Assembly (NCBI GenBank): GCA_020850945.1 | Contig: JADZDR010000050.1 | Span: forward strand, 1 to 64,000 | DNA from: Acidimicrobiia bacterium | Lineage (GTDB): Bacteria; Actinomycetota; Acidimicrobiia; UBA2766 | Reading direction: 5' to 3' | Length of the DNA stretch: 64,000 nucleotides | Shown: positions 8,326 through 51,993 of the stretch, piece after piece | How the letters are laid out: the number at the start of each line of letters is the position of its first letter | Numbering within the stretch: the stretch's first letter is position 1 | Program-made: the position numbers and the translations under genes | The notes under the pieces: model-generated | What the model saw: only the letters and a program-made list of their open reading frames with translations | Database searches by the model: none | Told to the model about the DNA's origin: nothing

Positions 8326-8367
8326 CTGGGTACCTGAGCGGCGATATATCGCCGCTCAGGTCCCCAG
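8326..8367. repeat. 42-bp near-perfect palindrome, possible uvrB operator or terminator
   Basis: Positions 8332-8361 form a perfect 30-bp palindrome with the centre CGATATATCG. With one mismatched pair (8331/8362) it extends by five more pairs on each side, to 8326-8367. It lies entirely between the stop codon of the HAD hydrolase gene (8368) and the uvrB start (8311). It spans about -15 to -56 relative to the predicted leaderless start. Either a dimeric repressor operator or a hairpin terminator for the upstream gene is possible. There is no U-run after it on the transcribed strand, which weakens the terminator reading. Confidence 0.85.
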
Positions 8368-9072
8368 TTACAGGTCGAGGAGGGGGGTGAGGTCCCGCAG
8401 GGACCTGATCCGGAGCCCCTCGAAGTCCGGGTGACGGTCGTAGCGGTCGAGGAGGACACCGCGGATGCCGACCGCCGCCGGTCCGTTCACGTCCGACTCG
8501 AGCGAATCCCCCACCATGACCGCCTCGTGCGGCTCGATGCCCGCCTCCTCCAACGCGATCCGGTAGATGCGGGGATCGGGCTTCTCGATTCCGACGCGAC
8601 CCGAGACCGTGACCGGTGACATGACGGGGGCGAGGCCGAGGTGACCGAGGAGCTCGGGCAGCCATGCCTCCCAGTTGGAGACCACCCCTGCACGGCAGCC
8701 CGCCTCGACGACCTCGTGCACCGCCTCCTCGGCGCCGTCGAGGAGGCCGTACGTGTCGAGCTGCGTGAACCTGTCGTAGACGAGGGCAGGCAACCCCGGC
8801 GGAGCGTCGAGACCGAGCTCGACGAGGAGCTCACGATACAGCCCGTGCCAGAACCGGCGTGAGAGTGACTCGTCGAGAGAGAACGCCCGCGCGTCGGAGG
8901 CGGCCACGCGCCGCCCGAAACGAGCCATCTCGCGCGCGAAGAGTGCGCTCGCCTCGTCGGCACTCACGACCAAGCCGGCGGAGGAGCAGACGTCGGCGAA
9001 GTGGTGGCCCCAGGAGGGACACGGCGCGATCAACGTCTCCCCGGCATCGAAGAGGACGAGCCTGACGGTCAC
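8368..9072 (-). CDS. HAD-superfamily hydrolase
   Basis: A 234-residue haloacid-dehalogenase-type phosphatase. Motif I is LFDAGETL, where the first Asp is the expected nucleophile and the second acidic residue is replaced by Gly, as in HDHD3-like members. Motif II is VVSN, motif III is the Lys of GIEKPDP, and motif IV is VGDSLESD. A helical cap lies between motifs I and II (about residues 20-110). The substrate cannot be told from sequence. The GTG start overlaps the coaE stop in a GTGA quartet, so translation is probably coupled to coaE. Confidence 0.9.
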
Positions 9073-45706: not shown

Positions 45707-47185
45707 TCAGATCGGGAGCCAGACGCTGAACGTCGTGCCCGCACCGGGTGTGCTGTCGACCGTGGCCCGGCCGCCGAGGGCCAGCGTCAACTCCGCCACG
45801 ATCGCCAGACCGAGGCCTGTCCCGACCTGACGTGCGCCCGGCAGGTGCCCGGCGACGTAGAGCCGCTCGAACACGTGGGGAAGGTGCTCGGGTGGGATCC
45901 CGTCCCCCGTGTCGGACACGTCGATCCGTACCGCTCCTCGCGGCCACGCGTCGGGTTGGGGTGATGCTGCCGTCCATGTGAGGGATATCGCCCGGCCCTC
46001 CTGCGTGTAGCGCAGGGAGTTCTCGAGGAGGTTCGCGACCACCTGGGCAACACGGTCCGGATCCGTGCGGATCTCGGGCAGCGGGCTCCCCGCCACGGAG
46101 AACTCGAGGCCCGCCTCGTCGGCCCGCCGCGCGAATGACGCGGCGAGCTCGCGCAGGTCCGCGTCGAGGTCGACAGACTGCACGTGGAGGCGGAACTCGC
46201 TCGCGTCGAGGCGGGCCAAGTCGAGCAGGTCGTGCACGAGGCGTTCGAGGCGGCCTGCCTCGGCCTCGATGACCTGGCCCGCCGCCACGGCCGCGTCCCC
46301 CGTGACAGCTCCGTCGGCGATCGCCTCCGCATATCCCTTGATGGACGTCAAGGGTGTGCGCAGATCGTGTGACACGGACATGACGAAGGAACGTTCGGTC
46401 TGGCGCGCGCGACCGAGCTCGTCGGCCATCGTGTTGAAGGTCTCACCGAGCACTCCGACCTCGTCCCCACTCGTGGGTTCGACACGGGCCGTGAGGTCAC
46501 CGTTGGCGATGGCTCCGGCCGCGGCCTGAAGCCGGCGAAGGGGACGTGTGAGCCTGTTCGCGAACCAGACGGACATGCCGACCGCGAGCGCAAGCGCGCT
46601 CAGACCGGCGGCGAGCATGGGTGACCGCCAAATGGAACGGTCCGTCTCCGGCGCGGCGGAGAGGACGAACACGAGTCTCTCCGCCCGCGTCCCCGCCCCT
46701 GCCGCCACCCAGACGACCGCACCCTCCCGTGAACGGATCACCCCCGTCTGCGTCTCGCCGGCAAGGAGAGCTTCCACGTCGAGGCCGGCCTGGTCGAAGT
46801 CAGCGAGAAGGTCCGTCTCGACGTTGATCCGCTCCGGTTGCCGCAGGGTCCCCTCCGGCGTGACCCGGAAGATCTCCGCCGACTCGACCTGGCTCACGAG
46901 ACGGAGAACTGCCGTGAACGCCCCGAACGTGGCCGCCCGCGCCACCTGTCGCTCCTCTGGAGTCTGTCCGTCCCGAGACGGGGGCAGCCCGAGCTCCGGG
47001 TCGGCGATGAAGTCGACCAGGGCATCGGCCTGCCGTACGAGCTCGTCGCGCGTCGACTCGACGACCGATCGGCGGACGAGCCAGACGGACACGAACCCGG
47101 CGAGGACGAGTGCGGCACCCGTCACACCCGTCATGACGAGGAGGAGCTTGTCCCGGAGGGAGAACCGCGAGCGGACCTCTGTCAC
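45707..47185 (-). CDS. OmpR-class sensor histidine kinase with HAMP domain
   Basis: A 492-residue two-TM sensor kinase. TM1 (LLLVMTGVTGAALVLAGFVSVW) is followed by an extracytoplasmic sensor of about 130 residues, TM2 (AAGLSALALAVGMSVWFAN), a HAMP domain (RPLRRLQAAAGAIANGDL), and HisKA with the phospho-His in SVSHDLRTPL. The ATPase domain has N box LLENSLRYT, DTGDGIPPE and GTGLGLAI. The GTG start overlaps the regulator stop (GTGA), so the pair is coupled. The stimulus is unknown. Confidence 0.95.
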   Translation of the reverse strand: MTEVRSRFSLRDKLLLVMTGVTGAALVLAGFVSVWLVRRSVVESTRDELVRQADALVDFIADPELGLPPSRDGQTPEERQVARAATFGAFTAVLRLVSQVESAEIFRVTPEGTLRQPERINVETDLLADFDQAGLDVEALLAGETQTGVIRSREGAVVWVAAGAGTRAERLVFVLSAAPETDRSIWRSPMLAAGLSALALAVGMSVWFANRLTRPLRRLQAAAGAIANGDLTARVEPTSGDEVGVLGETFNTMADELGRARQTERSFVMSVSHDLRTPLTSIKGYAEAIADGAVTGDAAVAAGQVIEAEAGRLERLVHDLLDLARLDASEFRLHVQSVDLDADLRELAASFARRADEAGLEFSVAGSPLPEIRTDPDRVAQVVANLLENSLRYTQEGRAISLTWTAASPQPDAWPRGAVRIDVSDTGDGIPPEHLPHVFERLYVAGHLPGARQVGTGLGLAIVAELTLALGGRATVDSTPGAGTTFSVWLPI

Positions 47186-47865
47186 TGCTCGTCGAGCAAC
47201 TGGTAGCCGACCCCCCAGACAGTGCGGATCTCGAGGGTGGAGCCGAGCTTCTTGCGGAGCTGGCGGATGTGGACATCGACCGTGCGGGTCTCCCCAACCC
47301 ACTCGTATCCCCAGACCTGGTGCAGGATCTGATCCCGGCTCATGACAAGCCCCCTGTTCTCGGCCAGGAACCAGAGGAGGTCGAACTCCTTGGCGGTGAA
47401 CGACGGTACGGCCTGGGAGACACACCTCACCTCGCGCCGCCCTGAATCGATGACGGTACCTCCGATCTCGATCGCCTCAGGCCGTGGTCCTGGGTCCTGG
47501 CGTCTCAACACGGCCTTCACACGGGCGACGAGCTCGCGGGGAGAGAACGGCTTCGTCACGTAGTCGTCCCCGCCCATCTCGAGGCCCAGCACCTTGTCGA
47601 TCTCGGAGTCCCGCGCCGTGAGGAAGACGAGGGGGAGGCTGCGGCCCCTCGAACGCAGCTCACGGCAGACTTCGAAGCCGTCGATGCCCGGCAGGTTCAC
47701 GTCGACGACAGCGAGACGGGGAGCGGCCCGGTCTGCTTCGACGAGGGCCTCCTCCCCTGTGATCGTGCGCACGACCCGGAAGCCCTCCTCGGACAGGTAC
47801 ATGGAGATGAGATCTGCGATGTGGTCCTCGTCCTCGCACACGAGGATCGTTCCCTTGCTCGTCAC
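47182..47865 (-). CDS. OmpR/PhoB-family response regulator
   Basis: A 227-residue regulator. The receiver has CEDEDH (acidic site), phospho-accepting Asp in AVVDVNLPGIDG, and Lys in VTKPFSPREL. The C-terminal winged helix (about 130-225) shows FTAKEFDLLWFLAENRG, WGYEWVGETRTVDVHIRQLRKKL and IRTVWGVGYQL. The GTG at 47865 gives a family-typical N-terminus. It is first in a two-gene operon with the kinase. Confidence 0.96.
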   Translation of the reverse strand: MTSKGTILVCEDEDHIADLISMYLSEEGFRVVRTITGEEALVEADRAAPRLAVVDVNLPGIDGFEVCRELRSRGRSLPLVFLTARDSEIDKVLGLEMGGDDYVTKPFSPRELVARVKAVLRRQDPGPRPEAIEIGGTVIDSGRREVRCVSQAVPSFTAKEFDLLWFLAENRGLVMSRDQILHQVWGYEWVGETRTVDVHIRQLRKKLGSTLEIRTVWGVGYQLLDEQ

Positions 47866-47993
47866 GGCTCTGCCCTCTGAGATGGCTCGGGGTCGCTTCG
47901 TCCGCGCATCATGATGATCGGCACGTGTTCTCCGCCAGGCAAACATCTGTTTGAAGAGTGTGAAGCCGTGATGACCTCGGGGCAGCCTCGACT

Positions 47994-49001
47994 TCAGGCA
48001 ATGTCGGCCTCTGTCCCGGCGGCATGCCTGATCAGCCCCCGGTAGGCGGCCATCGCCGACGAACCCTCGTACACGACCTTGTAGACCTCGCGCGCGATGG
48101 GCATCTCGACACCGTGACGTGTGGCGAGCTCCATGACCACCTTGCACGTCTTCACCCCCTCGGCGACCATGTTCATCTCCGCCGTGATCTCACCGATGGC
48201 ACGCCCACGGCCGAGCTCCTCGCCCACGTGGCGGTTGCGGCTCTGCGGGCTGATGCACGTCGCCATCAGGTCCCCCATACCGGCGAGGCCGGCGAACGTC
48301 TCCGGCCTCCCCCCCATCGCCGTGCCGAGACGGCTGAGCTCGGCGAGGCCGCGTGTGATCACGAGGGCACGCGTGTTGTCTCCCACACCCACCCCGTCCG
48401 CCATACCGGACGCGATCGCGATGACGTTCTTGAGGGCCCCCGCCACCTCGGCCCCGCAGACGTCGGACCCGGTGTAAACGCGGAAGAGGCCCGAGTTGAA
48501 GACCTTCTGCAGCTCACCGGCGATGCGCTCGTCCGCGGCTGCGACCAGGGCACCCGCCGCGTAGCCGGCGATGATCTCGCGGGCGAGGTTGGGACCGGTG
48601 AGAACAGCGACGGGGTGGCCGGGCAGGACCTCCGCTATGACCTCTGACATGCGGTCGAGGCTCCCCTGCTCGAACCCCTTCGTGAGGCTGACGACGGGCA
48701 CCGAGGGACGGATGTGGGGGGCGGCGGCCGTGAGCACCTCACGGAAACCGTGTGACGGGACCCCCATCACGACTGCGTCGGCGTCGCGGCATGCCTCCTC
48801 CAGGTCCGCCGTCGCCTCGAGCTTCGGGGACAGGCGGAAACCGGGCAGGTACCGGCTGTTGGTGCGCTCCACCCGGATCTCCTCCGCGAGATCCGGGCGG
48901 CGTGCCCAGACGATCGTCGACGGGACGTTGCGCGATGCGAGGCTCGCCACCGTCGTTCCCCAGGAACCGGCACCGACCACTGCTACCCGAAGTCCTGGCA
49001 T
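47994..49001 (-). CDS. gpsA: Glycerol-3-phosphate dehydrogenase [NAD(P)+]
   Basis: GpsA makes sn-glycerol-3-phosphate for phospholipids from dihydroxyacetone phosphate. The 335-residue protein has the nucleotide-binding AVVGAGSWGTTVA, SLTKGFE, GPNLAREI, the catalytic Lys region GALKNVIAIASG and GLAGMGDLMATC. GAGGAGAGCGC precedes the ATG. The 488 nt upstream are non-coding and full of hairpins. Confidence 0.97.
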   Translation of the reverse strand: MPGLRVAVVGAGSWGTTVASLASRNVPSTIVWARRPDLAEEIRVERTNSRYLPGFRLSPKLEATADLEEACRDADAVVMGVPSHGFREVLTAAAPHIRPSVPVVSLTKGFEQGSLDRMSEVIAEVLPGHPVAVLTGPNLAREIIAGYAAGALVAAADERIAGELQKVFNSGLFRVYTGSDVCGAEVAGALKNVIAIASGMADGVGVGDNTRALVITRGLAELSRLGTAMGGRPETFAGLAGMGDLMATCISPQSRNRHVGEELGRGRAIGEITAEMNMVAEGVKTCKVVMELATRHGVEMPIAREVYKVVYEGSSAMAAYRGLIRHAAGTEADIA

Positions 49002-49144
49002 GCGCTCTCCTCGTCATCCCCGCGATCGGTTCGCGTGTGTCCCGATTCTCGCGCAGCATCTGTGCCCGCAGACGGACCTGACCTCGTGGGCAGCGGATTT
49101 GCATTGAACCGGCAGGAGGCCTCTCACAAGGTTGTCTCAGAAAA

Positions 49145-49465
49145 CGGGACACTTCGCGAAGGCCGCAGGGAACGAAATGCCCGCCGCGGAAGTGTGCTCC
49201 CGTCGAGAACAGACTGCGCCAAGAGGATGGTGCCCCTCGGCGCAGGCGCCGGAACCGGCGAGATCGTCACCTTCGGGTGGGCGGTCCAGCCATCGCCGGT
49301 TCCGGAAGTCCCTTGGCCTGAATGGGGACGACCACAGGGGCCTGGGAGCGGTTCCCCAGTCGGGGCAGCGAATCGGGGAACCGCCCGCCCCTCCGGGGCG
49401 AGGCCTGTGGTAGGGCCAACGGACGCCGCACGCACCTCCGGTTCCCGAGGGTGCGTGCGGCGTCC
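49145..49465. ncRNA. Candidate structured RNA or multi-hairpin element between ygfZ and gpsA
   Basis: No plausible gene covers 49002-49489. Perfect or near-perfect stems follow one another. CGGGA-CACTTC (49145-49155) pairs with GAAGTG-tgc-TCCCG (49189-49202). A 13-bp stem (49249-49261 with 49293-49305) encloses a CACC-TTCG-GGTG tetraloop hairpin (49268-49279). CCACAGG (49332-49338) pairs with CCTGTGG (49404-49410) around two inner hairpins (49348-49357/49375-49384 and 49386-49391/49395-49400). A 16-bp hairpin at 49421-49465 closes the series. The strand cannot be decided. Conserved signatures of RNase P RNA, tmRNA and SRP RNA were not found. Confidence 0.5.
49421..49465 (-). terminator. 16-bp hairpin, probable terminator of ygfZ unit
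   Basis: GGACGCCGCACGCACC (49421-49436) and its exact reverse complement (49450-49465) flank a 13-nt loop. It begins 24 nt after the ygfZ stop in the direction of transcription. There is no U-tract on either side, so termination strength is uncertain; it may instead belong to the structured element. Confidence 0.55.
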
Positions 49466-49489
49466 CATTCACGTCAGGACATGACGGCT

Positions 49490-50443
49490 TCAGGACATGA
49501 CGGTGCCGCTGACACCGGCCACCTGCACCGTCGCTCCCGGTTCGACCTCGACTCGCACGAGTCCGAGACCGGCGGCGGATTCCCAGGCGGGACACCGAGC
49601 AGTCGTGGTCAGGACACCGACCGTCTTGTCGTCGACCACCACTTCTGCTCCCGGTTCGGGAACCTTGTCCGTCTCGAGGCGGATGCTGCGGGGGCAGTGG
49701 TTCGCGTGCCCCCGCGAGTGGATGCGCTCGATCAGTTCCTGACCTGTGTAGCAACCCTTGTCGAGGCTCACCGCCCTCGGCACGAGGCCGGCATCGTGCG
49801 GGATCGTGCCGGTGTCGTAGTCGACGCCGAACACGGGGATGCAGAGCTCCACGCGGCGTGAGTCGACCGCAAGCCGACCGGCCGGCGTCGCCCCGCCGAT
49901 CGTGAGCTCGCCGGCATCGGACACGACCACGTACGCGCCGAGGGCAGGGCCCCCCGTACGGAGTACGAGTTGCTCGCCGTGGACGACAAAGGCACAGCCC
50001 TCGTCGGGGATGTGCGTCTCCGCCACGAGCGGGGTGGCCGCCGCACCCGGCCCGGCGAGCTGCCACACTCCCCCACCCTCCCGCCTCGTGATCTCGACCT
50101 GCACGCGGATCCGAAAACGGTTCAACGCCTCGACGACGGCGTCGACCTCGTCGCGGCCGAGGACGAGCCGGAAATCGTCGGGGGCGAAGCACAGGAGGTG
50201 CCCTACCCCCACGAGGCGACCCCGCGGAGAGAGAACGAGGGTCTCGACAGCGTGTCCCGCCTGCAAGGCGGCTACGTCCGCCGAGAGCTGCCCGTGCAGG
50301 AATGCAGCCGCGTCCTCGCCGACGATGTCGACCATGCCGCCTGCGAGGTCGACCTGGGCACAGCCCTGCGTGAGTGCCGTGTACTCGGCGTCGAAGTCCC
50401 CGTAGGTGTCGGGGATCTCCTTCCGAGCGGCCGCCGCCCTCAC
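49490..50443 (-). CDS. ygfZ: YgfZ/GcvT-like folate-binding protein
   Basis: A 317-residue tetrahydrofolate-binding protein that assists Fe-S cluster enzyme assembly or repair. The diagnostic motif KGCYTGQE lies in the C-terminal half, and DIVGEDAAAFLHGQLSADV in the N-terminal GcvT-like part. GTG 50443 overlaps the trpE stop (GTGA), so it is translated as the last gene of hisI-trpE-ygfZ. Confidence 0.92.
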   Translation of the reverse strand: MRAAAARKEIPDTYGDFDAEYTALTQGCAQVDLAGGMVDIVGEDAAAFLHGQLSADVAALQAGHAVETLVLSPRGRLVGVGHLLCFAPDDFRLVLGRDEVDAVVEALNRFRIRVQVEITRREGGGVWQLAGPGAAATPLVAETHIPDEGCAFVVHGEQLVLRTGGPALGAYVVVSDAGELTIGGATPAGRLAVDSRRVELCIPVFGVDYDTGTIPHDAGLVPRAVSLDKGCYTGQELIERIHSRGHANHCPRSIRLETDKVPEPGAEVVVDDKTVGVLTTTARCPAWESAAGLGLVRVEVEPGATVQVAGVSGTVMS

Positions 50444-51993
50444 CTCGCCTCGCTCGTCCGCAGCAGATCGGCGGCTTCGATGGCGACGAGGACGCCCCGT
50501 GCCTTGTTGCGGCACTCTCGGTCCTCGTACGCCGGATCGCTGTCGGCCACGATGCCCGAACCCGCCTGTACGTAGGCGTTCCCACCTACGAGAACCGCCG
50601 TGCGCAGGGCGAGCGCTGTGTCGAGGTTTCCCGAGAAGTCGACGTAGCCGACCACACCCGCATAGGGTCCGCGTTGGGTCGATTCGAGCTCGTCGATGAT
50701 CTCCATCGCCCGCACCTTCGGGGCGCCGGACACCGTACCTGCCGGGAACGTCGCCCGCAACACGTCCATGGGGCCGGTCGCCGGGCGTGTGCGGGCCGTC
50801 ACGGTGGAGACGATGTGCATCACGTGGCTGTACCGCTCCACTGCCATGAACTCGGGCACTCGTACTGTCCCGTACTCGCCGAATCGACCGAGGTCGTTGC
50901 GGGCGAGGTCGACGAGCATGACGTGTTCGGCTCGTTCCTTGGGGTCGGCGAGGAGCCCTGCGGCGAGCTGCTCGTCCTCGTCCTCGTCGGCTCCTCGCCA
51001 GCGTGTCCCCGCGATCGGACGCGTGAGGGCAGCGGCGCCGTTGAGCCGGACCAGTTCCTCCGGCGATGCGCACACGATCGTGACCTCGGGGTGTTCGAGG
51101 AACGTCATGTAGGGCGAGGGATTCACGATACGCAACGCCCGATGCACGTCGAAGGGGTCGCCGCTGAAAGGCCGGTGGAACCGCTGGCTCAGGACGACCT
51201 GGAAGATGTCTCCCGCGAGGATGTACTCGCGGGCACGTTCGACCATCGACATGTAGTCGGCCGCAGGCGTGCTCGACTCGACGTCGCCGGGCTCTTCGGG
51301 GATCTGCGGGGTGTGGGCGGGTACGGACAGGGGGGACGCGAGGTCGGCGGCCACGGCGTGGAGGACGTCGACCGCCGCCCGGTAGCGGTGGTCGAGGGCC
51401 GTGGCGTCGGGGCCGTCCCCGACCCACACGTTGCGCACTGCGACGAGCCGCTGCCGGAAGTGGTCGAAGGCCACGAGTGTGCCGGTCGCGAACAGGAGGA
51501 GCTCTGGTACGCCGAGCTCGTCGGGGTTCGAGATCGGTACGCGTTCCATGAACCGCACCGTCTCGTACCCCCAGTATCCGACAAGACCCGCATGCAGGGG
51601 GGGCAGGCCGGGCAGGGTGGGCGTGCTGTGCGTGCGCAGGATCTCCTCGACGGCGGCCAGCGGATCGGTCAGTGCGGCCAGGGCGGCCGGCGCGTCGCCT
51701 TCGACCTCGATCCGGGACAGGCCGCCCCCGGGTCCACCCGCACGTGACTTGAGGACGAAGAGGGGATCACGCCCGATGAAGGAGAACCGCCCCCAGCGCT
51801 CCCCGTGCACGACGGACTCCAGGAGGAAGCTGCGCGGGTCCCGCAGCTTCATGAATGCGGACACGGGTGTCTCGAGGTCGCCGAGCAACTCGCTGAACAC
51901 GGGGACGACCGAGTACTCACGCGCAAGGGCGTGGAAGGTGTCCGGATCGGGGGCGACGACCAGTCCCGAGTCGGACAGGGTGGGCGCAGGCAC
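50440..51993 (-). CDS. trpE: Anthranilate synthase component I
   Basis: TrpE converts chorismate to anthranilate, using ammonia from a TrpG partner not present here. The 517-residue protein has the feedback-inhibition motif LLES(V), GLVGYWGYE, the catalytic core RIVNPSPYMTF, RPIAGTRWRG, LVDLARNDLGR, TFPAGTVSGAPK and QAGSGIVADSDP. It starts with GTG two bases after hisI. It is separated from trpC-F-B-A by about 5 kb. Confidence 0.97.
   Translation of the reverse strand: MPAPTLSDSGLVVAPDPDTFHALAREYSVVPVFSELLGDLETPVSAFMKLRDPRSFLLESVVHGERWGRFSFIGRDPLFVLKSRAGGPGGGLSRIEVEGDAPAALAALTDPLAAVEEILRTHSTPTLPGLPPLHAGLVGYWGYETVRFMERVPISNPDELGVPELLLFATGTLVAFDHFRQRLVAVRNVWVGDGPDATALDHRYRAAVDVLHAVAADLASPLSVPAHTPQIPEEPGDVESSTPAADYMSMVERAREYILAGDIFQVVLSQRFHRPFSGDPFDVHRALRIVNPSPYMTFLEHPEVTIVCASPEELVRLNGAAALTRPIAGTRWRGADEDEDEQLAAGLLADPKERAEHVMLVDLARNDLGRFGEYGTVRVPEFMAVERYSHVMHIVSTVTARTRPATGPMDVLRATFPAGTVSGAPKVRAMEIIDELESTQRGPYAGVVGYVDFSGNLDTALALRTAVLVGGNAYVQAGSGIVADSDPAYEDRECRNKARGVLVAIEAADLLRTSEAR

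Follow-up and report, generated by a model that had tools for sequence, protein, structure and literature searches.

The locus is a gene-free gap of about 330 bases in the genome of an uncultivated actinobacterium, and it lies within a stretch of 64,000 nucleotides that was analysed as a whole (the window). The preliminary description had placed a structured element in this gap between ygfZ and gpsA, and both flanking genes proved to be as named (the names are putative) and to lie on the minus strand. The features of the locus, in window coordinates, are these:

47994-49001, minus strand: gpsA (putative name)
49085-49125, minus strand: conserved block TTGTGAGAG-N17-TGCAAATC from the congener alignment, separating gpsA from the element
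49125-49466, plus strand: proposed non-coding RNA gene, ends approximate and predicted; own fold z -6.2, shared fold z -8.3, 78% identity
49120-49244, plus strand: 5' part with conserved blocks CTCTCACAA, GTCTCAGAAA, GTCGAGAACAG and GAGGATGGTGCCCCTCG; fold z -0.7 and -1.3
within 49144-49205: bulged stem of 11 pairs, from sequence and fold
49249-49305, plus strand: 13-bp hairpin domain (stem 49249-49261/49293-49305) with an inner stem of 5-6 bp; a CACC-UUCG-GGTG hairpin is nested in the 13-bp stem
49307-49419, either strand: most conserved domain; z -5.3 and -4.9
part of 49307-49419: GUCCC/GGGAC hairpin
49331-49338/49404-49411: outer stem of that domain, 8 bp (ACCACAGG/CCTGTGGT), enclosing two hairpins; alternative outer stem 49338-49343/49401-49406
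49348-49357/49375-49384: 10-bp hairpin of that domain, its loop AGTCGGGGCAGCGAAT kept in the congener
part of 49307-49419: small GCCCC/GGGGC hairpin
49421-49465, either strand: terminal GC-rich hairpin, 16 perfect pairs (49421-49436/49450-49465), 25 nt past the ygfZ stop codon
49490-50443, minus strand: ygfZ-like gene (putative name)

The perfect stems of 13, 10 and 16 bp that had been described are all present at their places in the sequence, and the only congener with a sequenced genome keeps each of them in some form. The stem given as 7 bp around two hairpins was found as 8 bp, and its domain is likewise kept. The UUCG tetraloop hairpin within the 13-bp stem and the 11-pair bulged stem are both present in the window, but the first is absent from the congener and the second is not kept there. 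Folding of positions 49125-49475 gave a minimum free energy of -197.7 kcal/mol on the plus strand (z -6.2, with 0 of 100 shuffles as stable) and -197.5 kcal/mol on the minus strand (z -6.1, again with no shuffle as stable). A coarse and noisy scan of the whole window, in 160-nt tiles every 200 nt with 12 shuffles per tile, placed the tile at 49421 second among 319. The strongest single hairpin in the same scan is a nearly perfect long one at 8326-8372 (CTGGGTACCTGAGCGGCGATATATCGCCGCTCAGGTCCCCAG), where a HAD-like hydrolase gene (8368-9072, minus strand) and a uvrB-like gene are separated by a short gap.

Among the 100 nearest genomes the sole sequence relative of the element is found in this congener, G001 (the MAG 'Actinobacteria bacterium ATB1'), so that the comparison is one of two clear sequences. 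The element there has 78% nucleotide identity over 327 bp and the same gene order, while the neighbouring YgfZ and GpsA proteins are 53% and 86% identical; judged by sequence identity, the element is better kept than the adjoining YgfZ protein gene. Identity peaks at 95% over 49334-49372 (40-column windows). Mismatches show no preference for any codon phase (24/23/28) and several indels are frame-breaking, so that a protein cannot be what is constrained, and a protein-coding gene is ruled out. Of the outcomes that the preliminary description had set against its proposal, neither an absence of conservation among close relatives nor an absence of covariation occurred: both element and fold are retained in the congener, where consistent changes and a few compensatory ones are seen in this comparison of two sequences. 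The proposal of a folded RNA, and not just one terminator, is thereby supported.

The shared fold was assessed by shuffling alignment columns within conservation classes. The consensus fold of the pair gave z -8.3 on the plus strand and -5.7 on the minus strand, and in the same test two coding stretches used as controls gave z from +1.5 to -1.9 and the pair's RNase P RNA and tmRNA, each on its own strand, -4.5 and -3.0. Conserved secondary structure beyond chance is therefore present in the element, as seen in two species with few double compensations. By segment, the plus-strand z was -0.7 for 49125-49210, -1.3 for 49210-49248, -5.3 for 49245-49308, -5.3 for 49307-49420 and -8.8 for 49420-49466. 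The 5' third, including the bulged stem, thus shows no significant conserved fold between the two species despite its conserved sequence blocks; the best-supported part of the element is 49245-49466, and the coordinates first given for it are good. Within the 3' domain a pseudoknot is possible in the model, pairing UUGGCC (49313-49318) with GGCCAA (49414-49419); both arms are invariant in the two species, so covariation is uninformative on it.

The domains differ in what they say about strand. For the 13-bp domain the fold is conserved on the plus strand (z -5.3 vs -0.3 on the minus strand), and all five changes keep pairs on the plus strand only (C-G to U-G, G-C to G-U twice, U-G to U-A and U-G to C-G). 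The 49307-49420 domain is supported on either strand (z -5.3 and -4.9), as is the terminal hairpin (z -8.8 and -8.7); these two parts do not discriminate between strands, and a few of their changes fit the minus strand only. The element of G001 folds about 15 kcal/mol better on the plus strand than on the minus strand. Taken over the whole element, the alignment favours the plus strand, short of proof.

With genes on both sides reading on the minus strand, and the fold significant there too, the element could instead act in cis on that strand, as the 3' end of a trpE-ygfZ transcript and the leader of gpsA, with the terminal hairpin and alternative stems controlling read-through into gpsA. Changes in the outer stem (49331-49337/49405-49411) and at the base of the terminal hairpin, which fit the minus strand only, speak for such a role. 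We nevertheless regard it as unlikely, given the lack of conservation of the 13-bp domain on that strand, the better plus-strand fold in G001, the finding that no Rfam riboswitch or T-box model matches the element, and the promoter-like conserved block that separates it from gpsA. In this block (49085-49125) the spacing of TTGTGAGAG and TGCAAATC is nearly fixed between the two species. It is perhaps gpsA's own promoter or operator, a resemblance that makes a gpsA leader less likely; no site resembling a sigma-70 promoter came out of a simple promoter scan. Two similar words, TCTCACAA and TCTCAGAA, lie 14 nt apart at 49117-49143 and are kept in both species, and they might serve gpsA or the RNA as an operator.

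The terminal hairpin, for which the congener shows two double compensations, is the likely end of the RNA. It could also be a two-way terminator that ends both the RNA and the ygfZ operon, although no U-run follows it on either strand. Its position next to the ygfZ stop codon, about as close in G001 as in the window genome, would suit another explanation, in which the hairpin cluster serves only to end and protect transcripts as a two-way terminator by ygfZ and the extra stems have no further role. At the same place in G002, a genome of the same family, a hairpin followed by TTTT is found on the strand opposite ygfZ, read away from it. Conservation, however, peaks not in the terminal hairpin but 100 nt away, in loops as well as stems at 49334-49372, and a terminator would leave 330 nt of conserved sequence unexplained; we consider this explanation distinctly unlikely.

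The gap of G002 (L170, 3323-4136) deserves mention in its own right. The space after ygfZ is enlarged there and contains a folded stretch (z about -3), and it aligns colinearly with the element on the right strand, with 2 of 200 shuffles as good; a 300-nt test, the covariance model and a three-way consensus fold gave it no support. It is perhaps a diverged counterpart of the element. Elsewhere, the gpsA and ygfZ neighbourhoods of relatives held no convincing element. Searched with a covariance model of the core, 395 genomes of the class yielded the two species only and 397 genomes of the phylum the window's own element only; the first look of this search scores few candidates per genome and could miss remote relatives. 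A match of 28.7 bits in G258 was attributed to chance, since long open frames overlap it and the model scores the congener's reverse strand at least as highly.

The gene order trpE-ygfZ-response regulator-kinase (window 47182-51993) is common to many relatives. In several of them the response regulator follows trpE-ygfZ directly, with a short gap only, and gpsA is located elsewhere in the other genomes compared. In this genus gpsA and the element lie between ygfZ and the response regulator, and, unlike the relatives' order, this block is thus a derived arrangement. It might then be supposed that the element arrived with gpsA as an insertion remnant, a decayed mobile element, or that its palindromes act as DNA. 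This is the least probable of the readings, and we think it very unlikely: the element is found in the same place in two well-diverged species, and changes that preserve folding on just one of the strands point to a single-stranded function. A repeat or mobile copy was likewise rejected, since the element is single copy in the genome (a second match is its own palindrome) and no copies were found in plasmids, phages or viral contigs at the sensitivities used.

The covariance-model check against Rfam 15 that had been suggested found no family at or above its gathering score in the element of either species, and permissive thresholds gave nothing either; SRP RNA, included in that search, gave no match, as the preliminary description had held. 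RNase P RNA and tmRNA are both found elsewhere, above cut-offs, in the window genome and in the congener, which bears out their earlier dismissal and excludes a divergent copy of either. The element matches no RNA family on file and is probably a small non-coding RNA gene.

We favour, as somewhat better than an even chance, a free-standing non-coding RNA gene on the plus strand, divergent from gpsA and convergent with ygfZ, whose product acts in trans. The gene would run for about 300-340 nt, from near 49125 to the hairpin at 49421-49465, and its transcript would consist of a loose 5' part, the 13-bp hairpin domain, the compact two-hairpin domain and the terminal hairpin, which would protect the RNA and probably terminate transcription. 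The RNA would most likely work as a stable protein-binding or regulatory RNA rather than as the leader of a neighbouring gene. Counting against this plus-strand gene are the changes in the 3' half that fit the minus strand only, the confinement of the element to the genus in our searches, and the simple promoter scan, which gave no recognisable plus-strand promoter. Little has been described of the non-coding RNAs in this actinobacterial class, and no study dedicated to them came up in a literature search; the element is a concrete candidate RNA gene, with a shared fold and better kept than the adjoining protein gene.

Among known RNAs, RNase P RNA and tmRNA resemble the element in length and amount of structure. 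The best weak plus-strand match is to 6C RNA (RF01066), an actinobacterial two-hairpin RNA; it falls on the terminal hairpin with 22.4 bits (E 1.2), where the gathering score is 47, and has no match in the congener. Weak matches to scr5239 (RF02605), at 18.7 and 19.5 bits against 64 in the two species, are at chance level and fall on the minus strand, opposite the favoured one. 6S RNA, a single long hairpin of 180-200 nt with a central bubble, is like the element by analogy only, as a stable intergenic regulatory RNA; the predicted and consensus folds here are consecutive local hairpins, with no Rfam match. The actinobacterial Ms1 RNA, known as MTS2823 in M. tuberculosis and scr3559 in Streptomyces, resembles 6S in being a rod with a central bubble and is encoded between genes for a HAD hydrolase and an oxidoreductase (PMC9130861). 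The element shares with Ms1 a length of about 300 nt, a high degree of folding, an intergenic position next to an oxidoreductase gene (gpsA) and weak sequence conservation between genera, but it is predicted to fold into local hairpins in a row, not into a rod with a large central bubble, its neighbours are gpsA and ygfZ with no HAD hydrolase, and it has no Rfam match. It is possible, though we hold this only tentatively and as well short of an even chance, that the element represents a new family, a multi-domain trans-acting RNA of about 330 nt that may take the place of a global regulator, such as 6S or Ms1, in this lineage. Such a family would have escaped notice by being limited to a single uncultivated actinobacterial genus or recognisable nowhere outside it; should the RNA bind a global factor, it would be added to the small number of large regulatory RNAs known in actinobacteria.
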